From contig NZ_LELA01000043.1 of NCBI RefSeq assembly GCF_001677955.1, positions 112,861 to 176,860 on the forward strand: DNA of 64,000 nt, read 5' to 3'. The notes under the pieces are model-generated. The model did not search any database. It worked only from the letters and a program-made list of their open reading frames with translations, and was not told the origin of the DNA. The first letter of the stretch is position 1. The number at the start of each line of letters is the position of its first letter. Position numbers and translations under genes: made by a program. Positions 36,043-53,914 of the stretch are shown here, in pieces. The stretch comes from Chryseobacterium sp. BGARF1. Lineage in GTDB: Bacteria > Bacteroidota > Bacteroidia > Flavobacteriales > Weeksellaceae.

Positions 36043-36528
36043 TTATACCATCATATCAGCACAATTTGAACTTGCGAAAGCGTAAGGTTTTGCTTTAAAA
36101 ATATAACCCATTCCCAGAATATATCCCATCGCGTCTTTCAAAGCGACGTTGGATTTAAAATCAGGGTCGGTGTTAATGTCTGCGTGTACCTCCATTTCCA
36201 CATCATAAGTTTCCAGAATTGAGCAAATGGCATAGGCGATTTCTACAGATTTGTTGACTTCGTTCAACATTCGCTCTTTAATACTGATATTCTGTATTTC
36301 TCTTTCTTTTCTGATAAAGGTAAACGCTCCTTTTCCCTCACGAATAAAGACAACTGCCGTAGCATAATTAATGGCATCACCGTAAACGTGGGAGTCTGAA
36401 CCTACACACACTTTCAGTCGATATCCATTTGCCTGTTCGCGAATGATGGCTTCTTCTACCAATTGTGTGATAGAATGTTGGAAAATTTTTCCTGTCATAT
36501 TTTGCCATATTTGTTGTTGCGTTTCCAT
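36043..36528 (-). CDS. DUF458 (YkuK-type) RNase H-like protein
   Basis: A 161-aa protein of the DUF458 family. KVCVGSDSHVYGDAINYATAVVF (about residues 38-60) carries the first Asp of an RNase H-like fold; EVHADINTDPDFKSN (about 111-125) supplies further acids, and CADMMV ends the protein. RNase H-like nucleases cut RNA or transfer phosphodiesters. It is the first protein gene after the tRNA array. Start ATG at 36526-36528 is preferred; an internal ATG at MTGKIF is possible. Confidence 0.82.
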   Translation of the reverse strand: METQQQIWQNMTGKIFQHSITQLVEEAIIREQANGYRLKVCVGSDSHVYGDAINYATAVVFIREGKGAFTFIRKEREIQNISIKERMLNEVNKSVEIAYAICSILETYDVEMEVHADINTDPDFKSNVALKDAMGYILGMGYIFKAKPYAFASSNCADMMV

Positions 36529-36683
36529 TTTTTCTACATGTTTAAGTTTTATATTTTTTATAATTCATAAATGATTATTGATATTAGTAATGAGTAATAG
36601 GTAATTAGTAATATTAAAATCATATTTCAATTAGTGTTTGCAATAATTACTCATCGCTCATTACCCATGACTTATATTTTTTG
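36529..36683. repeat. Inverted spacer at the end of the tRNA array
   Basis: TAATGAGTAATAGGTAATTAGTAAT and AATAATTACTCATCGCTCATTACCC are complementary halves; a related pair flanks the Leu(UAG) gene (36851-36955). No gene. Confidence 0.5.
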
Positions 36684-36757
36684 TACCTCTCCCCAGATTC
36701 GAACTGGGACTTTACGGAGTTTAAGACCGTTTTCTCTGCCAATTGGAATAGAGAGGC
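36684..36757 (-). tRNA. tRNA-Leu(UAA)-like, short variable loop
   Basis: Acceptor GCCTCTC/GAGAGGT, anticodon loop CTTAAAC (TAA), T arm CCCAG-TTCGAAT-CTGGG. The variable loop is only five bases (AAAGT), unlike the long arm of normal tRNA-Leu. The anticodon stem has a T-T mismatch and the D stem is three pairs. The discriminator A is followed by CAAAA instead of CCA. Confidence 0.75.
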
Positions 36758-36764
36758 AATTTTG

Positions 36765-36842
36765 TACGGGAAAAGGGAGTCGAACCCTCAATATCTTGAG
36801 CCTAAATCAAGTGCGTCTGCCAGTTCGTTCCGCCATTCCCGC
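36765..36842 (-). tRNA. tRNA-Leu(UAG)-like, short variable loop and expanded D loop
   Basis: Acceptor GCGGGAA/TTCCCGT, anticodon loop TTTAGGC (TAG), T arm GAGGG-TTCGACT-CCCTT. The D loop is enlarged (GAACGAACTGGCAGA) and the variable region is short (about ATATT). The normal Leu long arm is missing. 3' tail ACAAAA. Confidence 0.78.
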
Positions 36843-36850
36843 AAGTTTCT

Positions 36851-36955
36851 ATGAGGAATAAGTAATGTGTAATTAATTATATAAATTCTTCCTTAATAAT
36901 TTATGCTGATAATAATTACTCATTGCACATTACCCATTACCCATTACTCATATTT
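36851..36955. repeat. Inverted spacer between tRNA genes
   Basis: ATGAGGAATAAGTAATGTGTAATT .. AATTACTCATTGCACATTACCCATTACCC: near-palindromic spacer like that at 36529-36683. Confidence 0.5.
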
Positions 36956-36957
36956 TG

Positions 36958-37030
36958 CACTCTATAAGGGAATCGAACCCTTATTTTCTGCTCGAAAGGC
37001 AGGCGTCCTGAACCGTTAGACGAATAGAGC
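36958..37030 (-). tRNA. tRNA-Glu(UUC)-like, copy 2
   Basis: Acceptor GCTCTAT/ATAGAGT, D arm GTCT..AGGAC, anticodon loop CTTTCGA (TTC), T arm AAGGG-TTCGATT-CCCTT. Position 27-43 is a C-A mismatch. The discriminator is G; tail GCAAAA. Related to copy 1 at 38081. Confidence 0.82.
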
Positions 37031-37039
37031 ATTTCTCTT

Positions 37040-37121
37040 GTGAATGTTGAATCTTCAATTTGCTTTGCAGTCAAGTTTTAAATTAACTTGCGTAGCAAAA
37101 TTCACTATTCATTATTCACTT
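37040..37121. repeat. GTGAAT inverted spacer, copy 4
   Basis: Begins GTGAATGTTGAA and ends TTCACTATTCATTATTCAC; shares CAATTTGCTTTGC and TTAACTTGCGTAGCAAAATTCAC with the other three spacers. Confidence 0.6.
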
Positions 37122-37127
37122 TTTTTG

Positions 37128-37198
37128 ACCACTAACCAGGAGTCGAACCTGAACAACAAGAGTATATTTCCTGCATGCTTCCTTTACATTATAAGCGG
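37128..37198 (-). tRNA. Degenerate tRNA, anticodon UAU or undetermined
   Basis: Acceptor CCGCTTA/TTAGTGG with one T-T mismatch, D arm ATGT-AAAGGAA-GCAT, anticodon stem CAGGA/TCTTG, T arm TCAGG-TTCGACT-CCTGG. The seven-base loop AATATAC lacks U33, so decoding as UAU (Ile) is doubtful. It starts one base after the CCA of the Leu gene. Confidence 0.6.
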
Positions 37199-37199
37199 T

Positions 37200-37337
37200 T
37201 GGTGGAAGTAGTAGGATTCGAACCTACTCAGCAATCAAGCAACAGATTTTAACTCTGTTACTTTTTCTTTTTTAAGGAATCGTTCAATTCGTTCCTCATG
37301 TCAGTCTGCCCCGACTCTCCAACTTCGGCGTACTTCC
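37200..37337 (-). tRNA. tRNA-Leu(UAA)-like gene with 48-base insertion
   Basis: Acceptor GGAAGTA/TACTTCC is perfect, followed by A and an encoded CCA. D arm CCG..CGG, anticodon arm ACAGA-GTTAAAA-TCTGT (TAA), then a longer variable arm and T arm TAGG-TTCGAAT-CCTA. A 48-base piece lies between D and anticodon arms and folds as AGGAA-CG/CG-TTCCT. It is the only array tRNA with encoded CCA. Confidence 0.7.
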
Positions 37338-37410
37338 TTTTTTATAGATGATAATTGATAGAAGATGAATGATTTTCATTCTAACATCTAATTTCTCATT
37401 TGAAGAAAAA

Positions 37411-37468
37411 CAAAGCCTGTCTTTTATTTTTAGTTTGATGTAAGAACTTCTTCGCTCGACAAACTTTT
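37411..37468 (-). ncRNA. Array hairpin A (GTTTGTC / GACAGGC family)
   Basis: AAAGTTTGTC and GACAGGCTTT pair; the loop holds GAGCGAAGAAGTTCTTACATC. One of three related elements between the tRNA genes; the GTCG-AG..AGAAG core recalls the Y-RNA-like elements. Confidence 0.6.
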
Positions 37469-37503
37469 ATTTTCTTCGGAACTAATCTCATTTTAGTTAT
37501 TTG

Positions 37504-37585
37504 AGATGGTTATGGGATTCAAACCCACTCAGTTTTCACAACGGTTTTGCAGACCGCCCCGACTCTTCCACTTCGGCGAACCATC
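37504..37585 (-). tRNA. tRNA-Cys(GCA)-like
   Basis: Acceptor GATGGTT/AACCATC perfect; D arm CCGAAGTGG..GTCGG of Leu/Ser type; anticodon loop CTGCAAA (GCA); 12-base variable segment; T arm GTGGG-TTTGAAT-CCCAT. The T loop has T at the usually invariant C56. Tail TCAAA. Same D arm as the interrupted Leu gene. Confidence 0.72.
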
Positions 37586-37657
37586 ATTTTTAATTAGTTG
37601 TTGGTTTCTAGTTGATCGTTTTTAGAAATATCACGTTTCTAATTTCTAATTGAAAAA

Positions 37658-37719
37658 AATAAAGCCTGTCTTAATTTTTTGTTTGATATAAGAACTTCTG
37701 CGCTTTGACAAACTTTATT
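37658..37719 (-). ncRNA. Array hairpin B (GTTTGTC / GACAGGC family)
   Basis: AATAAAGTTTGTC pairs with GACAGGCTTTATT over 13 positions (two G-U). The loop contains AAAGCGCAGAAGTTCTTATATC, nearly the same as hairpins A and C. Confidence 0.65.
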
Positions 37720-37809
37720 TTATCTAAAAATTTATATTATGTTTAAAACTTCCAACTTTCTTCATCCATCTTTCAACTTTTACTTATTAATTTTCATTTT
37801 TTGAGTTAA

Positions 37810-37876
37810 GAAAAAGCCTGTCTATATTTTTGTGTTTTTTTGGCGTAAAGATCTTCTGCTCTCGACAAACTTTTTC
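37810..37876 (-). ncRNA. Array hairpin C (GTTTGTC / GACAGGC family)
   Basis: GAAAAAGTTTGTC pairs with GACAGGCTTTTTC over 13 positions; the outer half covaries with hairpins A and B. Loop GAGAGCAGAAGATCTTTACGCC. Confidence 0.65.
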
Positions 37877-37913
37877 TTTTCTCTTTTTGAAACAATTAAC
37901 ATTTAGTTATTTG

Positions 37914-37987
37914 TAATTTCGGAAGGACTCGAACCTTCAACCTTCGGCTTATGAAACCGATACTCTAACCTATTGAGCTACGAAATC
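37914..37987 (-). tRNA. tRNA-Met(CAU)-like
   Basis: Acceptor GATTTCG/CGAAATT, D arm GCTC..GAGT, anticodon loop TTCATAA (CAT), T arm GAAGG-TTCGAGT-CCTTC. Could be elongator Met or Ile2 if lysidinylated. The body is nearly the same as the Arg and Ile genes at 38519 and 38601. Tail ACAAA. Confidence 0.82.
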
Positions 37988-37992
37988 TTTTA

Positions 37993-38076
37993 TGTGAACT
38001 GCCAATTATCAATTCCCTTTGCTATCAATTTTCAAATTCACTTACGAAGTGAAATTCACTATTGACCATTCACATT
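37993..38076. repeat. GTGAAT inverted spacer, copy 3
   Basis: GTGAACTGCCAATTATCAATTC .. ATTCACTATTGACCATTCAC. Ends are complementary and shared with copies 1, 2 and 4. Confidence 0.65.
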
Positions 38077-38080
38077 ATTG

Positions 38081-38153
38081 TACTCCATAAGAGAATCGAA
38101 CTCTTATCTACTGCTCGAAAGGCAGCCGTCCTAAACCATTAGACGAATGGAGC
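38081..38153 (-). tRNA. tRNA-Glu(UUC)-like, copy 1
   Basis: Acceptor GCTCCAT/ATGGAGT, anticodon loop CTTTCGA (TTC) on stem GCTGC/GCAGT, T arm AAGAG-TTCGATT-CTCTT. G1-U72 closes the acceptor. Tail ACAAT. A near-duplicate of 36958-37030. Confidence 0.84.
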
Positions 38154-38159
38154 AAATTG

Positions 38160-38231
38160 TCTGGAAAGCAAGATTCGAACTTGCGACCTCCCGCATCCAA
38201 GACGGGTAAACAACCACCGTTATCTTTCCAG
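38160..38231 (-). tRNA. tRNA-Pro(UGG)-like
   Basis: Acceptor CTGGAAA/TTTCCAG perfect, anticodon loop CTTGGAT (TGG) on stem CCCGT/GCGGG, T arm GCAAG-TTCGAAT-CTTGC. The D stem is reduced to AAC/GTT. Tail ACAAT. C1 is unusual. Confidence 0.82.
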
Positions 38232-38299
38232 TTTTGCAGATTCACTTCAAAAATCTTTTCCGAGAGACAGTCGGATCGGAAATTTTCCGTGAATCTTTG

Positions 38300-38424
38300 C
38301 GGTCTATGCGAGATTGTTCATCATCACATATATATATTTTCTTTTGAATTCACGAATGCTTTGCATTTCGAACTCGCAGTACCTGAGCGACAGTCAGGCA
38401 GGTTAGCCATTACCTCAATAGACC
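38300..38424 (-). tRNA. tRNA-Asp(GUC)-like gene with 53-base insertion in the T loop
   Basis: Acceptor GGTCTAT/ATAGACC perfect, D arm AGGT..ACCT, anticodon arm CCTGA-CTGTCGC-TCAGG (GTC). The T stem GCGAG/CTCGC is intact, but its loop is about 60 bases: TTCGAA starts normally and the rest is an A/T-rich insert. Tail GCAAAG. If the insert were removed the tRNA would be canonical. Confidence 0.75.
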
Positions 38425-38430
38425 TTTTTT

Positions 38431-38513
38431 ATGTGAATCGTGAATTGTCAATCCGCTTTGCTCATCAATTTTAGATTCACTTGTGAAACAAAATTCACGA
38501 TTCGCAATTCACA
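38431..38513. repeat. GTGAAT inverted spacer, copy 2
   Basis: GTGAATCGTGAATTGTCAATCCGC .. ACAAAATTCACGATTCGCAATTCAC: same family as copies 1, 3 and 4, ending at the tail of the Arg gene. Confidence 0.65.
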
Positions 38514-38518
38514 TTTTG

Positions 38519-38592
38519 TAATCTCAGAAGGATTCGAACCCTCAACCTTCGGTGTCGTAAACCGACGCTCTATCCAATTGAGCTATAAGATT
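38519..38592 (-). tRNA. tRNA-Arg(ACG)-like
   Basis: Acceptor AATCTTA/TGAGATT, D arm GCTC-AATTGGATA-GAGC, anticodon loop TTACGAC (ACG) on TCGGT/ACCGA, T arm GAGGG-TTCGAAT-CCTTC. Apart from the acceptor it resembles normal bacterial tRNA-Arg(ACG). Begins with A1. Tail ACAAAA. Confidence 0.85.
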
Positions 38593-38600
38593 ATATTTTG

Positions 38601-38674
38601 TAATCCCAGAAGGGCTCGAACCTTCAACCTTCGGCGTATCAGACCGATGCTCCAACCCATTGAGCTATGAGATT
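38601..38674 (-). tRNA. tRNA-Ile(GAU)-like on an Arg scaffold
   Basis: Acceptor AATCTCA/TGGGATT, D arm GCTC-AATGGGTTG-GAGC, anticodon loop CTGATAC (GAT) on TCGGT/GCCGA, T arm GAAGG-TTCGAGC-CCTTC. Its body matches the Arg gene nine bases downstream rather than normal tRNA-Ile. Tail ACAAAA. Confidence 0.83.
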
Positions 38675-38685
38675 ATTTTAATTTA

Positions 38686-38769
38686 GTGAATGGTCAATTA
38701 TTAATTCACTTAGCTTGTCAATTTTTAAAATCCTTTTGCGAAAAAAGATTCACTGTTGACCATTCACAT
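38686..38769. repeat. GTGAAT inverted spacer, copy 1
   Basis: GTGAATGGTCAATTATTAATTCAC .. GATTCACTGTTGACCATTCAC. The termini are perfect inverted repeats (GTGAATGGTCAA/TTGACCATTCAC). Confidence 0.7.
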
Positions 38770-38773
38770 TTTT

Positions 38774-38846
38774 GGGTATCTTCGGGGATCGAACCCTGTT
38801 CTCCGGTGCCACAAACCGGCGCTTTACCAAATAAGCTAAAGAAACC
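38774..38846 (-). tRNA. tRNA-His(GUG)-like, degenerate, no G-1
   Basis: Anticodon arm CCGGT-TTGTGGC-ACCGG (GTG), D arm GCTT..AAGC. The acceptor GGTTTCT/AGATACC has a T4-T69 mismatch, the T stem keeps only three G-C pairs, and the base before position 1 is T, not the G-1 required by histidyl-tRNA synthetases. First gene of the array. Tail CCAAAA. Confidence 0.72.
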
Positions 38847-38847
38847 A

Positions 38848-38884
38848 TAAAAAAAGCGCCTCTTTTCGGGAGGCGCTTTATATA
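38848..38884 (-). terminator. Attenuator-like terminator between sensor ORF 1 and tRNA array
   Basis: AAAGCGCCTC/GAGGCGCTTT forms a 10-bp stem followed by TTTTTTT on the minus strand, ending at the tRNA-His 5' end. Its 5' arm is also complementary to a segment of sensor ORF 1 (38917-38929), giving two exclusive folds. Confidence 0.85.
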
Positions 38885-38929
38885 TTTTGACGTGTCGCTA
38901 CATTAGCTGACCCATTTATATAAGCACCT
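38871..38929 (-). promoter_or_regulatory. Antiterminator pairing of sensor ORF 1
   Basis: Minus-strand AGGTGCTTATATA (38917-38929) pairs with TATATAAAGCGCCT (38871-38884) over 13 positions with one G-U and one bulged A. This removes the 5' arm of the terminator at 38853-38879, so the two structures exclude each other. Confidence 0.7.
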
Positions 38930-39028
38930 TTTATCCACAAATTCACTATCAAGAATACACGCAAATCCCATCGGCTCTTGTCTGTCTCGTCCTGAATACT
39001 GATTAGATATGTTATGTAATTGTTTCAT
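38903..39028 (-). CDS. Sensor leader ORF 1: 41-aa peptide sampling 19 amino acids
   Basis: A 41-codon frame from ATG 39028 to TAA 38903, with a promoter box upstream and a terminator 23 bases downstream. It begins MKQLHNISNQYSGRDRQEP and includes FACILDSEF and CLYKWVS. It uses 19 of 20 amino acids (only Thr is missing) and about 32 different codons, including several G/C-ending ones rare in this A/T-rich context (GCG, CCG, CGA, AGG, GTC, AGC). No protein family is visible. The structure is that of an attenuator leader: codons 33-37 (AGGTGCTTATATA) can pair with the terminator's 5' arm. Confidence 0.75.
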   Translation of the reverse strand: MKQLHNISNQYSGRDRQEPMGFACILDSEFVDKRCLYKWVS

Positions 39029-39353
39029 TATATTCTTGTTGTATAAAATTGTTTTTTTGAAAAGATTAAAAACGTGTTGCTTTTAATTTTCGGTTGCAAA
39101 GTAAGTACGAAAATATTTAATTCACAAATTTATTTTTCAACCAACATGCTGCAAATCAATTAATTACAACTTTCTTTTAGAGTAGAGGATTTCTGTCCGT
39201 AATATTTTACAGATACCTTAATTACCTAAATGACTGTCTCTCATTGGTTTTCCTATCACGTTTTATTTTCTTATTAGTTGTTCATTGTTGATTAAATAAT
39301 TTTTACTTTTATGGTTATTTTTTTTCATTCTAAATAATTTCTGCCCTAAAAAC
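39029..39353. other. Intergenic region between the two sensor ORFs
   Basis: A/T-rich. It holds the promoter of sensor ORF 1 near 39097-39105 and nothing else I can identify; repeated TTTTATT/TTATTT tracts at 39250-39340. Confidence 0.5.
39097..39105 (-). promoter_or_regulatory. Promoter box of sensor ORF 1
   Basis: Minus-strand TTACTTTGC, the same box as in the Ro60 promoter P3, about 70 bases before the start. No CTGCGTAAA element is present, so control differs from P1-P3. Confidence 0.5.
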
Positions 39354-39384
39354 ACAAAAAACGCCTCGATGACCGAGGCGTTTT
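39354..39384 (-). terminator. Terminator after sensor ORF 2
   Basis: AACGCCTCG/CGAGGCGTT stem, loop GTCAT, followed by TTTTTTG on the minus strand; 31 bases after the ORF 2 stop. Confidence 0.85.
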
Positions 39385-39453
39385 CACTATATTTTGATTA
39401 AATCTTTACGGGTTTACGGTAAATAATTTTCAAAGCAAGCACATTTCGCCTCA
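39375..39453 (-). promoter_or_regulatory. Possible antiterminator pairing of sensor ORF 2
   Basis: Minus-strand TGAGGCG (39447-39453, codons 30-32) can pair with CGCCTCG in the terminator's 5' arm over 7 positions (one G-U). Weaker than that of ORF 1, but at the equivalent place, downstream of codon 26. Confidence 0.5.
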
Positions 39454-39542
39454 TCCGATATCATCCATTCATATCCAAACGATCCCTTTACTACAGGGCG
39501 ATCGCATAGATTTAAACTGATATGTGCTCTTTGTATTGTCAT
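39414..39542 (-). CDS. Sensor leader ORF 2: 42-aa peptide sampling all 20 amino acids
   Basis: A 42-codon frame from ATG 39542 to TAA 39414, with a perfect promoter box 14 bases upstream and a strong terminator 31 bases downstream. It reads MTIQRAHISLNLCDRP.., VVKGSFGYEW, MISDEAKCACFENYLP. All 20 amino acids appear within the first 26 codons, most only once, which is far from ordinary composition. No membrane, signal or known motif. I read it as a ribosome-stalling sensor that tests every tRNA class; expression as a real peptide is secondary. Divergent from the RCC1 gene. Confidence 0.78.
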   Translation of the reverse strand: MTIQRAHISLNLCDRPVVKGSFGYEWMISDEAKCACFENYLP

Positions 39543-39555
39543 AATTTTATTGATG

Positions 39556-39563
39556 CAAAGATA
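39556..39563 (-). promoter_or_regulatory. Promoter -7 box of sensor ORF 2
   Basis: Minus-strand TATCTTTG, a perfect TAnnTTTG box, 14 bases before the ATG, giving a very short leader. Confidence 0.65.
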
Positions 39564-39602
39564 AATGTTTTTTGTATTTTTAAGAAAAATTCTAATAACC
39601 TA

Positions 39603-40961
39603 ATGAGAAAATTTTATCTTTTATTTATTATTTTGATTAATTCTTTAGTCTACTCACAATGCTGGAAAACTGTTACAAGCGGATATAAAACTTCTTATGG
39701 AGTCAAAAATGATGGAACGTTATGGGGATGGGGTGTAAATGAATTTGGACAACTCGGAAATGGAACTACTGTTGATTCAACTATTCCAATTCAAATTGGA
39801 AATGAAAACAACTGGACAGAAGTATTTGCAATGGATGGTTCAAGCCACGTATTAGCGATAAAAAAAAATGGAACGCTTTGGGCTTGGGGATGGAATGCTT
39901 GGGGACAAGTCGGAAATGGAAATACTACAAATGTTTACACACCCGTACAAATTGGCACTGATCAAAACTGGAAAAGTATTGCATGCTATGACACTCATAA
40001 TCTCGCATTAAAAACAGACGGTACACTTTGGTCATGGGGAAATAACTACAACGGTCAACTTGGAATGACAGGAGGACACAGATATTATCCTACACAAGTT
40101 GGTAACGATAATGACTGGGCGGTCATTGCTACAGGACTTGAAAGCTCTTATGCTATAAAAACCAATGGTACTTTATGGTCTTGGGGAGATAATAATCGAG
40201 CTCAACTGGGTAACGGAACATTCGGAATATCAAATAATCCCATCCCTACACAAATAGGAATAGATACTAACTGGAAAACTGTAAGTGCAGGACATGTACG
40301 TGCTGCAGCTATTAAAACTGATGGTACACTTTGGCAATGGGGTGAAAAATTCGATTTCCCTATTGCAGCACCGTATCAAACAACTCCGATACAAGTCGGC
40401 AATCAAAACAATTGGAAAGATCTAGAATTAGGATACCTATATGCAACTGCAATAAAAACAGATGGAACATTATGGTCTTGGGGATATGGAGAATTAGGTG
40501 ATAGTGTTTTTCATAATTTTACAGCTAATCCCATCCCAGTAAACTCGCAAAATAACTGGAAATCAATATCATCAGGCATGTATTATTCTATGGGATTAAA
40601 ATATGACGGGTCACTTTGGGTTTGGGGAAGTAATTCCAATGGCGTTTTAGGTGACGGAACTACGATCACAAAACTATATCCTATTCCTATTGGTTGCCCT
40701 TTATCTCTTTTATCAACTAATGAAACTACTATTGATTATAGTTTTGATATATATCCTAACCCTGCAAAAAGCACTGTTTTCGTAAAAGGAAATATTGATA
40801 TTGTAAACATTTCCATTTATAGTATTGATGGTAGATTAATTAAGGATTTATCTACAAACAATAAAAAAATAAATATCAGTTTTTTGGAAAAGGGAATTTA
40901 TATTCTTAAAGTTCAAGATAAAGATCATAATTTTTACACAAAGAAACTTATCAAAGAATAA
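39603..40961 (+). CDS. Secreted RCC1-repeat protein with type IX sorting domain
   Basis: A 452-aa protein starting MRKFYLLFIILINS (signal peptide, about 20 residues). Seven RCC1/BNR-type repeats with the core DGTLWxWGxNxxGQLGNG fill residues about 25-365 and should fold as a beta propeller. The C-terminus (DIYPNPAKSTVFVKG .. GIYILKVQD .. KKLIKE) is a T9SS type A sorting domain. Surface or secreted binding protein; ligand unknown. An upstream in-frame ATG would extend across sensor ORF 2 and is rejected. Confidence 0.92.
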   Translation: MRKFYLLFIILINSLVYSQCWKTVTSGYKTSYGVKNDGTLWGWGVNEFGQLGNGTTVDSTIPIQIGNENNWTEVFAMDGSSHVLAIKKNGTLWAWGWNAWGQVGNGNTTNVYTPVQIGTDQNWKSIACYDTHNLALKTDGTLWSWGNNYNGQLGMTGGHRYYPTQVGNDNDWAVIATGLESSYAIKTNGTLWSWGDNNRAQLGNGTFGISNNPIPTQIGIDTNWKTVSAGHVRAAAIKTDGTLWQWGEKFDFPIAAPYQTTPIQVGNQNNWKDLELGYLYATAIKTDGTLWSWGYGELGDSVFHNFTANPIPVNSQNNWKSISSGMYYSMGLKYDGSLWVWGSNSNGVLGDGTTITKLYPIPIGCPLSLLSTNETTIDYSFDIYPNPAKSTVFVKGNIDIVNISIYSIDGRLIKDLSTNNKKINISFLEKGIYILKVQDKDHNFYTKKLIKE

Positions 40962-52408: not shown

Positions 52409-53914
52409 CTATTGTACTGCTTGTAAAACATTAATATTTCCATATCCATAATCTGCATTCTTGGTTGGATAATAGGTTGCAGACTGTCTCATTTTATTTA
52501 AAACCTGATCTCTCGTCCATGACGGATTTTTAGACCAAACCAAAGCTGCAATTCCCGCAGTAGAAGCAGTTGCCACAGAAGAACCACCTACATAATCGGT
52601 TTGTGCATTATAATAACTTAAAACAGGAATATTATTTCCGGAAGCTCTTTCCATTTGATAGGTAAAATCGATCTCACTTCCAGAGTGGCAAACGTCACAC
52701 TTCTGATTAGATGTATTTTCTTTTACACCTGTTATTGCTTGTGTTTCTGGCATCCAAGCTGGGAAAATTACCCCGACAAATGTTGTAAAGCTTGTAGAAG
52801 TTCCACCTGCGCAGAATATTAGTTTTCCTTTAGAATAAGCATATTTTACACCATCTTCAATTTTTCCGACTGAGAAAATATGTCCCATTGACATTGAAAT
52901 TATTTTCACACTTGCCGTATTTCCAAGATTGGTAAAGGCAATTTTCACTCCTTCTTGCTCGTGATAACCATCCAAAACAACGTTTGAAGCTGCACGATAA
53001 GAGATCAAGTTTGCATTATAGGCAACACCAACCGGTTGTCCCTGATTGTTTCTCGGAGCCGCCATTGCAGAAGCCATACTCGTTCCGTGACCGCATTTAT
53101 CATCCGCTCCGTCGTAACCAGAACTCCAAGGCCAAACAGAATCTACATACACTCCGTTTTTACTGATTGTTCTTCCCGAAGACGAACCGTTATTAAAACT
53201 GCCACTCAACAAACTTTGATTAAAAGAAACTCCTGAATCGATCAATCCGATGGTAACTCCCGCTCCGGTGCTGTAATTCCATGCGCTTGTAATATTATGT
53301 TTTGCGAATGACCAAGGTGCTTTTGCGTTTGGAGTTACGGTAGTGTAATCTGAAGCACTCAGAGCAGTTGACTCTAATCCACAACCTGAAGAACTTCCAC
53401 TTGATTTAGCTACGGTTCCATTGATTTTATTTTCATTTTCAAAATAGCGGTAATCTGCAGGCTCGAAATAGCGGATTGATTTTAATTTTCGCAAAGCAAT
53501 TACTGTTTCCTGCTTTTCGATATAAACATCGATTTGATTTAAATATTCATCAGAAGCTAACAAAACTCGCTCGTTTTTCCCTTCATATTGCTGAATGATA
53601 TCTAAAATTTCCTGTTGTAAAGCCTCAGAATTTGAAGATTTACTTCTATCAAAATCATCTTTCGAATCTCCGAAACCGATAGAAGCTATTTTATTTCCCT
53701 GAACAATTCCGCTCCACAAAAAGTGTGATGAAGCTTCGTTCCAGGAAAATCTTCCTTTCGTTTTGGTCGTTTGATTAATTTGTTCGTTGATTTGTCTTGC
53801 ACTCAAAGGCTCTGTCTGTACAATTTCTGCTTCGATAGCATTGGTCTGCATGTCTTCTGTGGAACAAGAGCTCAGCGCAAAAACTGCCAATACGTAAAAT
53901 ACACATTTTTTCAT
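52409..53914 (-). CDS. Subtilisin-like (S8) serine protease lipoprotein
   Basis: A 501-aa lipoprotein: lipobox ALSSCS (Cys17) gives a lipid anchor. A propeptide follows (about 25-165), then the S8 catalytic domain: Asp in TIGLIDSGVSF (about 225), His in CGHGTSMASAMAAP (about 274), Ser in GGSSVATASTAGIAALVW (about 457). The triad is complete, so it should be active, outside the cytoplasmic membrane. Own terminator downstream; upstream is the divergent pfkA. Confidence 0.92.
   Translation of the reverse strand: MKKCVFYVLAVFALSSCSTEDMQTNAIEAEIVQTEPLSARQINEQINQTTKTKGRFSWNEASSHFLWSGIVQGNKIASIGFGDSKDDFDRSKSSNSEALQQEILDIIQQYEGKNERVLLASDEYLNQIDVYIEKQETVIALRKLKSIRYFEPADYRYFENENKINGTVAKSSGSSSGCGLESTALSASDYTTVTPNAKAPWSFAKHNITSAWNYSTGAGVTIGLIDSGVSFNQSLLSGSFNNGSSSGRTISKNGVYVDSVWPWSSGYDGADDKCGHGTSMASAMAAPRNNQGQPVGVAYNANLISYRAASNVVLDGYHEQEGVKIAFTNLGNTASVKIISMSMGHIFSVGKIEDGVKYAYSKGKLIFCAGGTSTSFTTFVGVIFPAWMPETQAITGVKENTSNQKCDVCHSGSEIDFTYQMERASGNNIPVLSYYNAQTDYVGGSSVATASTAGIAALVWSKNPSWTRDQVLNKMRQSATYYPTKNADYGYGNINVLQAVQ

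Follow-up and report, generated by a model that had tools for sequence, protein, structure and literature searches.

Tandem leader ORFs with near-complete amino-acid repertoires as putative attenuators of a divergent tRNA array in Chryseobacterium

Organization of the locus

The window analyzed here is a stretch of 64,000 nucleotides from Chryseobacterium sp. BGARF1 (NZ_LELA01000043.1, positions 112861-176860), located on a 177-kb contig of a 4.7-Mb draft genome in 260 contigs. On its minus strand, the elements follow one another in the order P1, leader 1, terminator 1, a conserved spacer of 250 nt, P2, leader 2, terminator 2 and a tRNA array. The features, in window coordinates, are as follows:

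39556-39563, minus strand: P1, putative promoter -7 element TATCTTTG, fits TAnnTTTG
39414-39542, minus strand: leader 1 ORF, 42 aa, all 20 amino acids, all 20 within codons 1-26
39447-39452, minus strand: antiterminator segment 1, GAGGCG, codons 31-32 of leader 1, from the consensus fold
39357-39385, minus strand: terminator 1, from the search for terminator-like sites, helix kept in 106-109 of 109 sequences per pair
39096-39103, minus strand: P2, promoter-like TACTTTGC, fits TAnnTTGY
38903-39028, minus strand: leader 2 ORF, 41 aa, 19 amino-acid types (no Thr), 32 distinct codons
38917-38929, minus strand: antiterminator segment 2, AGGTGCTTATATA, codons 34-38 with the start Met as 1
38871-38884, minus strand: antiterminator 2 partner, TATATAAAGCGCCT, overlapping the 5' arm of terminator 2
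38853-38879, minus strand: terminator 2, 10 bp, with 6 nt between the stem and tRNA-His
36683-38846, minus strand: accessory tRNA array, from ARAGORN, Rfam and comparison with core tRNAs
36765-36842, minus strand: probable Leu(TAG), a covariance-model match only

The peptides of leaders 1 and 2 are MTIQRAHISLNLCDRPVVKGSFGYEWMISDEAKCACFENYLP and MKQLHNISNQYSGRDRQEPMGFACILDSEFVDKRCLYKWVS, respectively. An earlier sequence-only reading had described leader 2 as a 41-codon ORF with 19 amino acids, lacking Thr, and about 32 codons, and had taken it for the second of two such leaders. Both descriptions hold: the ORF runs from 39028 to 38903 with 32 distinct codons, and the first leader lies at 39542-39414, followed by its terminator at 39385-39357. 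The antiterminator had been assigned to codons 33-37; the segment itself (38929-38917) was recovered, while its numbering shifts to codons 34-38. As proposed, it pairs over 13 positions with TATATAAAGCGCCT (38884-38871), forming 13 base pairs with one bulged A, and the right part of this partner is the 5' arm of the 10-bp terminator (38879-38853) that precedes tRNA-His, which starts at 38846. Since they share this arm, the terminator 2 and antiterminator 2 folds exclude each other, in agreement with the same reading. Beyond it, the locus is found to comprise tandem units at a near-fixed distance, a divergent second tRNA set, a conserved spacer with no conserved ORF and a loop match between the spacer and the array.

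Leader 2 is a short ORF directly 5' of an intrinsic terminator, as expected of an attenuator, and this arrangement is kept in 107 of 107 distinct leader-2 sequences. The region 36400-39800 contains six terminator-like sites against 1.8 expected. A search of the window's own genome with the leader-2 DNA returned only short chance matches and no further copies, and an Rfam search of the window at gathering scores returned tRNA, Flavo-1 and DUF805 RNA, with no T-box match.

Leader 1 was found in 142 and leader 2 in 140 of 148 sampled Chryseobacterium genomes, the window's own counted. Part of the loci was retrieved (140 oriented, with some genomes present twice), yielding 109 distinct leader-1 and 107 distinct leader-2 sequences; the leader-2 set omits locus L146, from genome G066, where leader 2 is truncated, and L147, from genome G020, has no leader 2. 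The two leader start codons are 498-531 nt apart in 107/107 distinct loci, and tRNAs lie 3' of leader 2 in all 92 distinct loci that extend more than 1.5 kb from the leader-2 start (L146 left out).

The accessory tRNA array

The array reads His, Ile(GAT), Arg(ACG), Pro(TGG), Glu(TTC), Met(CAT), Cys(GCA, 83 nt), Ile(TAT), Glu(TTC), a probable Leu(TAG) and Leu(TAA, 75 nt). Where a core tRNA of the same anticodon exists, its members share 61-69% identity with it (Arg-ACG 69, Cys 61, Glu 65-69, His 69, Pro 64, Met 61-65), and for 9 of the 11 the best identity to any core tRNA is below 70%. Leu(TAA), Ile(TAT), Ile(GAT) and the probable Leu(TAG) have no core copy with the same anticodon among the 60 tRNA places of the draft, a count from which core copies in unassembled rRNA operons could be missing in an assembly of 260 contigs. 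Being clustered, anticodon-redundant and divergent from the core, these genes correspond to an accessory (spare) tRNA array, and by these comparisons the array is a spare, divergent second tRNA set.

Across the 92 loci, ARAGORN called 883 tRNAs, 1-17 per array, with 20 assigned anticodon kinds plus one SeC and one unassigned; the composition varies between arrays and isotypes recur. Unusual architectures recur as well: tRNA-Cys(GCA), which has a long variable arm, measures 83 nt in 69/74 cases, and Leu(TAG/TAA), without a long variable arm, 74-77 nt; an Ile tRNA with a UAU anticodon is a further unusual member. Furthermore, several anticodon loops differ between array and core tRNAs (Glu CUUUCGA vs UUUUCAU, Pro CUUGGAU vs UUUGGGA, Arg-ACG UUACGAC vs UUACGGC). 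The array tRNA-Asp loop is CUGUCUC in 49 of 60 cases, CUGUCGC in 9 and UUGUCUC in 2; the CUGUCUC form stands one base, U37, from the CUGUCAC of core tRNA-Asp. In the window, the His loop differs from the core only at position 38, and the Met loop equals that of one core tRNA.

These peculiarities could also mean that the array encodes decoys or regulatory tRNA-like RNAs that do not serve in decoding and are induced under stress, for example to titrate a nuclease. The long variable arm of Cys and its lack in Leu, U37 in Asp, the low core identity of 9 of the 11 tRNAs and anticodon-arm-like hairpins in the array that are uncalled as tRNAs would all suit such RNAs. The recurrence of isotypes among 883 called tRNAs with 20 assigned anticodon kinds argues for decoding instead, as does the spare array of Anabaena, which, according to the available part of PMC10272220, favours survival under translation stress. 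On balance, we regard decoys as unlikely and decoding tRNAs as the preferred reading.

Long inverted repeats of the type GTGAATGGTCAA...TTGACCATTCAC were seen by eye between the array tRNAs (36683-38846, minus strand), and a short piece of array DNA (query 1896-1932) recurs elsewhere in the genomes of several relatives. A second odd tRNA-like cluster lies 3' of protein genes at L400:3600-4025 (G000:C5, about 52600-53020, minus strand), consisting of Asp-ATC, Ser-GCT of 71 nt, Gly-TCC, Val-CAC and one unassigned tRNA, most with low covariance scores.

Promoter-like elements, the conserved spacer and loop complementarity

In 109/110 loci, the motif TAnnTTTG lies 19-22 nt upstream of the ATG of leader 1. 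In Flavobacterium psychrophilum, this consensus is placed at -12 to -5 (PMC9723704, available part); if P1 acts at the same distance, the 5' UTR of leader 1 would be about 9 nt. For P2, TAnnTTGY, reported as motif SM5 in the available part of PMC9723704, is present somewhere in the 70 nt searched in 110/110 loci, and ACTTTG(C)A in 109/110. As a short motif in A+T-rich DNA, the P2 motif is weak alone; P2 could drive leader 2 by itself. Between P2 and leader 2 (39029-39095, minus strand), a conserved starting sequence, CCGAAAATTRAAAGCAACA, which in some species could fold into an A-U-rich hairpin, was noted by eye.

The spacer (39096-39357, minus strand) is highly conserved, with two hairpins, no conserved ORF and no Rfam match at gathering scores. 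A small spacer protein (MKKNNHKSKNYLINNEQLIRK) was ruled out by stops and indels in homologues, and the spacer is likely an RNA gene or a regulatory element. The hairpins of the spacer and of the array are the following:

39229-39245, minus strand: spacer hairpin AATGA-GAGACAG-TCATT, 5-bp stem and 7-nt loop
39192-39213, minus strand: second spacer hairpin, with paired stem changes TCTGTAA..TTACGGACAGA / TCTGCAA..TTGCGGACAGA, seen by eye
38259-38275, minus strand: array hairpin TCCGA-CTGTCTC-TCGGA, resembling the anticodon stem-loop of array tRNA-Asp

The GAGACAG loop on its 5-bp stem is present in 107/107 loci, and the spacer motif, allowing up to two mismatches, in all genomes of the genus searched except G063, G066, G078, G098, G134 and G142. 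Its exact complement, CUGUCUC, occurs in the sense strand of the array region in all 106 loci with at least 800 nt. Array regions hold 156 copies of CUGUCUC against 6 of GAGACAG; the density of CUGUCUC is 0.57 per kb there vs 0.025 per kb over the remainder of the window. Among the 92 tRNA-annotated loci, 86 intergenic copies were counted, one per locus in 86, and array tRNA-Asp carries 49 further copies as its anticodon loop. Where no intergenic copy exists (six loci), the tRNA-Asp loop is present, and no locus thus lacks both. A stem of 4-6 bp encloses 85 of the 86 intergenic copies, with paired stem changes (UCCGA/UCGGA 42, UCCGG/CCGGA 24). Genome-wide, the array hairpin pattern was found 29 times in 21/21 genomes with the module, always no further than about 1 kb from leader 2. 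It occurs in 0/9 genomes without the module, including six of the genus. The spacer loop and the array loops are therefore considered a candidate loop-loop contact.

Distribution in Chryseobacterium and other genera

Leader 2 was missed in G020, where leader 1 lies at a contig end, in G038, an assembly of 410 contigs that is 87% complete, in G066, and in the near-complete G063, G078, G098, G134 and G142. In the latter five, which have no leaders, matches to the window's array were merely scattered and never exceeded 66 bits, and no array hairpin was found. The array places of the most distant positives score at least 71 bits (71 in G204) vs at most 66 in the leaderless genomes, a small gap. 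In G066 (L146/L182), leader 1 is partly kept, leader 2 is reduced to 9 codons with no tRNA following, and searches gave no array match, no array hairpin and no GAGACAG motif; this genome has the look of a decaying module, a natural half-loss.

In Epilithonimonas (g9), both leaders were found in 4/4 genomes of a chosen set, three of which had been picked for the spacer motif, and a wider search of the order found leader 1 in five g9 genomes, with at least two (G212 and G229) giving no match. Order-wide, the leader-1 profile at E <= 0.001 matched 34 of 296 genomes and 2 of 90 genera, in a search with first-look filters that may miss diverged copies; other families gave no sequence relative at this threshold among the 296 genomes. 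The leader-2 profile matched outside Chryseobacterium in g9 only, because the peptide turns over.

Within the family, the chosen set of 40 genomes revealed leader 1 in three further genera (E 4e-13, 1e-12 and 2e-7), represented by G159, G237 and G204, the last two included because of the spacer motif. Their leader-1 peptides, MTLQRTHIARNLWESPSIKGLFCYDVMLKSEAKSVFSEIFTD, MILQRVHITRNLWESPSIKGLFCYDAMLINEAKYISLDKIHV and MKLQRIHIAGNQWESPSTVGSLRFDVILSHEAICIFFRYFME, hold 20 types each, of which 20, 20 and 18, respectively, fall in the first 26 codons. Their second leaders, of 37-39 codons, are MQKLKNISHTEKWDDCPQFIEMNLFGSDDFQRWLYKTFS (G159, 18 types), MKCTLNISMQFWGQHPERNLAVYRDFILKRCLYNYVN (G237, 20 types in 37 codons) and MQNTRHISSKTEWMQDPQCLEANFYGRKNFQRWLYLAFS (G204, 19 types), and none of the three is matched by the Chryseobacterium profile at E <= 1. 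In each, AGGTG stands opposite a CACCT arm, with tRNAs 3' of it, and the array hairpin is present as well; it is absent from the 2.0 kb covered of L240.

An exact scan of species genomes for the spacer motif found at least 118 stretches, and almost all of the 80 matches listed belong to Chryseobacterium or Epilithonimonas. Three assemblies assigned to Flavobacteriaceae/Flavobacteriales are also among the listed matches; those at L241, L297 and L300 are probably chance occurrences. No such leader unit was observed at ordinary tRNA operons (20 stretches among the tRNA places listed for 7 genomes without the module). ORFs with 17-19 types lie 5' of several of these stretches, none with a suitably placed intrinsic terminator, and the sole terminator-like call (L349, at -90) accompanies ORFs resembling gene ends. 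A phage or plasmid origin found no support: the spacer motif has no exact match in viral contigs, the leader region none in plasmids, and phage records gave one match of 64 nt at 81%.

Amino-acid repertoire of the leader peptides

Natural 41-residue segments drawn from 48 long ORFs in the window reach 19 types in 1.3% and 20 types in 0.007% of cases. Among the 109 distinct leader-1 sequences, 57 hold 20 types, 49 hold 19 and 3 hold 18, and among the 107 of leader 2, 32 hold 20 types, 43 hold 19, 28 hold 18 and 4 hold 17; 19-20 types are thus present in 106/109 and 75/107, respectively. Taken together, the two leaders cover 20 types in 105 loci and 19 in 2 of 107. All 20 types are reached by codon 26 in 36 of the 109 leader-1 sequences, and at least 19 types in none of 15,387 natural 26-mers. 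The coding frame is richer than the other two frames in both leaders (19.5 types vs 16.4 and 17.5 in leader 1; 18.9 vs 16.5 and 16.6 in leader 2).

Shuffling residues within alignment columns lowers the mean number of types from 19.50 to 19.13 in leader 1 and from 18.96 to 18.72 in leader 2, with 0/500 shuffles as high as observed. As this shuffling ignores relatedness, a tree simulation was also run, in which each column changes independently; its tree covers 110 loci and derives from this same region. The observed means again exceed the simulated ones (leader 1, 19.50 vs 18.93, 7/400 runs as high; leader 2, 18.85 vs 18.10, 5/400 runs as high).

The part of each leader 5' of the antiterminator, where stalling would be sensed, holds 17 types in leader 2 and 20 in leader 1 of the window. 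Across homologues, this zone is less complete in leader 2 (13-19 types): Trp is absent from it in 101/107 leader-2 and 53/109 leader-1 sequences, Val in 47/107 and 47/109, and Thr in 79/107 leader-2 sequences. In this general form, with nearly all amino acids represented, the regulatory codons fit the mixed tRNA product of an attenuator. Distinct codons exceed the synonymous expectation, computed with the codon usage of the window, in 97/109 leader-1 and 95/107 leader-2 sequences; the window's leader 1 shows no excess (30 vs 30.2 expected), and its leader 2 a mild one (32 vs 28.6; 138/2000).

A leader for a single amino acid was ruled out, since no residue run in the window's leaders exceeds two and the repertoire survives the change of the peptide. 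More broadly, the leaders might sense one thing, either a single amino acid or the arrest of a nascent peptide by a drug or metabolite, with the wide repertoire incidental. The start regions MTIQRAHI and MKQLHNIS are kept within the genus, as those of an arrest peptide could be, and one E. coli uORF answers many ribosome-targeting antibiotics by stalling at different positions, as stated in the available part of PMC12121999. Against a single signal, the commonest residue of the window's leaders appears only three (leader 1) or four times (leader 2), the C-termini are frame-shifted in two species, the leader-2 peptides of other genera lie beyond profile recognition while the repertoire stays, and the repertoire surpasses the tree-aware null. 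We therefore judge a single signal very unlikely and favour the general reading: across these homologues it is the repertoire, not the peptide sequence, that is conserved in the leaders. In database searches, 4 of 19 matches among the leader-1 peptide relatives carry the label 'penicillin-binding protein', apparently a misannotated 42-aa leader.

The terminator/antiterminator switch

The switch was folded using the RNA beyond an assumed ribosome footprint, cut at the position of RNA polymerase before the 3' arm of the terminator, with the A site placed at even-numbered codons and at the stop codon. With the A site at codon 28 or earlier, the leader-2 antiterminator forms with a probability of about 1, and from codon 30 on it is absent, matching the switch near codon 28 that the sequence-only reading had predicted; in leader 1, the corresponding positions are codon 26 and codon 28. 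In full-length equilibrium folds, the terminator is favoured at every ribosome position tried (probability 0.88-1.00). Leaving the antiterminator segment free does not change this outcome, so that any effect of the antiterminator has to be kinetic; co-transcriptional kinetics are usual for attenuators.

Consensus folds cut before the 3' arm of the terminator contain the antiterminator as the sole structure in both leaders. The consensus folds that end at the terminator showed no conserved 1:2 anti-antiterminator hairpin further upstream, and the full-length consensus fold of leader 1 has other helices inside the ORF too. The single-sequence leader folds are stronger than their shuffles (z -2.0 in leader 2, z -4.0 in leader 1).

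The antiterminator core AGGTG[CT] and the terminator are both kept in all 107 distinct leader-2 sequences. A homologue retaining the terminator without the antiterminator, which the earlier reading had named as the case that would count against it, occurs in 0 of these 107, a set gathered by DNA similarity to the window's leader in which losses of the element would be under-sampled. In 21/107 sequences, the 5' arm of terminator 2 is GCACCT and the 3' arm is altered to match; almost all the rest have GCGCCT as the 5' arm, and the antiterminator U pairs with both forms. A compensated change from G-C to A-U is found in terminator 2 in 11 of 42 aligned rows. In leader 1, the consensus of 109 sequences keeps each of the five pairs of the antiterminator helix in 108-109, with G-C/A-U replacement; one pair is G-C in 102, A-U in 5 and G-U in 2.

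In sets of 42 diverse rows, antiterminator cells are paired in 92.1% for leader 2 vs 18-64% when the segment is slid, and in 95.6% for leader 1 vs 35-46%. Compensatory change had been suggested as a check, and the outcome is mixed: the pairing is conserved, but two-sided changes are scarce, affecting one of 13 leader-2 and one of 6 leader-1 pairs in one cell each (42 rows each), values reached by 45/500 and 27/500 shuffles, respectively. The shuffle controls are mildly favourable, 26-45 of 500 reaching the observed change and covariation values. Two of the 13 leader-2 pairs are unpaired in 13/42 and 14/42 rows. Covariation support for the antiterminators is thin.

Leader 2 varies between 35 and 45 codons across homologues, and the antiterminator stays in frame, at a distance to the stop codon that is a multiple of three, in 105 of 107. 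Synonymous changes are enriched in the leader ORFs, and the dN/dS-like ratio is 0.75 in leader 1 and 0.59 in leader 2, indicating weak constraint on the peptides. The length changes in frame and the excess of synonymous change suggest that the leader ORFs are translated. The antiterminator nucleotides of leader 2 are kept in L084 and L129, with a frame shift at the 3' end, and in L131, with an early stop, so that the RNA element, more than the peptide end, appears to be selected. That the ORFs are untranslated or irrelevant, within a conserved structured RNA with plain terminators and an array set by a promoter or protein, is highly improbable: nucleotide conservation is high outside the ORFs too, the leader-1 peptide is weakly constrained and a comparable Anabaena array is under the protein repressor TrcR (PMC10272220, available part), but the frame maintained despite length change, the synonymous enrichment and a repertoire that beats natural proteins and both other frames speak for translated leaders.

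Proposed mechanism and significance

We consider it likely that the tandem leader units, with their 19-20 amino-acid types and an antiterminator overlapping the terminator, release the divergent tRNA set when ribosomes stall at almost any codon. The mechanism is most likely ribosome-mediated attenuation made general. The sequences themselves show the anatomy, its conservation, the keeping of the repertoire, the exclusive folds and the association with divergent tRNAs; we infer translation of the ORFs, the direction and generality of the sensing, the tandem action, the role of the spacer hairpin and the purpose of the tRNAs.

A ribosome would load on the leader soon after the RNA emerges. When translation is fast, it would cover the antiterminator near codons 31-38 while the terminator is being synthesized, according to the geometry with the assumed footprint, and transcription would stop before the tRNAs. 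When any tRNA is short, the ribosome would stall upstream, the antiterminator would pair with the 5' arm of the terminator and the polymerase would read on; the pairing and the exclusion of folds behind this step come from the sequence and its homologues. Stalling would accordingly be the condition that turns the array on. Leader 1 may gate the conserved RNA with the GAGACAG hairpin and, via readthrough, leader 2, which, with its own promoter-like site, may gate the array. The released tRNAs would refill the pool and, because their anticodon loops are changed, might, speculatively, escape tRNA-cutting toxins.

A further, tentative possibility, which we hold to be less probable than not being realized, is a two-stage alarm for all codons in which the two leaders, each sensing nearly every amino acid, jointly release the spare tRNAs with their changed anticodon loops, and the GAGACAG hairpin, present only in the leader-1 readthrough RNA, docks by loop-loop contact on the CUGUCUC loops of the array transcript. 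Its targets would be anticodon-arm mimics or array tRNA-Asp, one base from ordinary tRNA-Asp (CUGUCAC), and stage one would license or feed back on stage two.

If the proposed attenuation is true, a leader that senses nearly all amino acids is a direct gauge of translation speed made from one short ORF and a hairpin, and the release of spare tRNAs is a repair response to tRNA damage or shortage. The combination of an all-amino-acid leader with a spare tRNA target makes two questions testable, namely the purpose of accessory tRNA arrays and how a cell detects the loss of any tRNA. Additionally, the module may be usable as a ready-made reporter of tRNA stress.

Comparison with known systems

In attenuators of the trp, his and ilv type, the position of the ribosome on a short leader ORF chooses between terminator and antiterminator. 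To our knowledge, the leader-peptide attenuators of amino-acid operons sense one or a few amino acids, and a theoretical study of attenuation reportedly dealt with leaders carrying codons for the operon's own amino acid. The Chryseobacterium units resemble these attenuators in their short leader ORF, the arm shared by antiterminator and terminator and the predicted decision by ribosome position. They differ in holding codons for nearly all amino acids, in their tRNA-array target, in the two tandem units and in an antiterminator inside the 3' end of the ORF, a position from which the absence of translation would mean ON. T-box riboswitches bind uncharged tRNA directly, with no translation, and control a terminator and antiterminator. 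The leaders would be like them in tying an intrinsic terminator and antiterminator to tRNA supply and unlike them in being read via translation, and the window has no Rfam T-box match at gathering scores. A literature search, to which subscription papers and bioRxiv preprints were mostly outside scope, returned no pan-amino-acid leader and no leader-peptide control of a tRNA array.

The E. coli toiL uORF, described in the available part of PMC12121999, controls a toxin-antitoxin mRNA via the ribosome-binding site and Rho. It is similar in that one short ORF reports many translation stresses; here, in contrast, the predicted target is tRNA genes and the means an intrinsic terminator. The anticodon loops of phage tRNAs bear changes by which these tRNAs are predicted to escape nucleases (PMC10264068, available part). 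The array loops likewise differ from those of the host core tRNAs, and unlike phage tRNAs the module is without viral or plasmid matches beyond the single phage match noted above. The tRNA array units of Mycobacterium are clustered, anticodon-redundant and divergent, with a suspected antidefence role, according to the available part of PMC12803027. They share redundant anticodons and divergence from chromosomal tRNAs with the Chryseobacterium locus, from which they differ in that the same part of PMC12803027 places them on plasmids or phages and mentions no leader unit.

The trn operon of Anabaena sp. PCC 7120, as presented in the available part of PMC10272220, encodes 26 accessory tRNAs on a megaplasmid, is repressed by TrcR and is silent until induced by translation-blocking antibiotics. 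In both systems, a spare tRNA array exists beside the housekeeping tRNAs. Unlike the protein TrcR and the megaplasmid of Anabaena, the predicted sensor in Chryseobacterium would consist of RNA and the ribosome, encoded on a 177-kb contig immediately upstream of the tRNAs that it is proposed to release.
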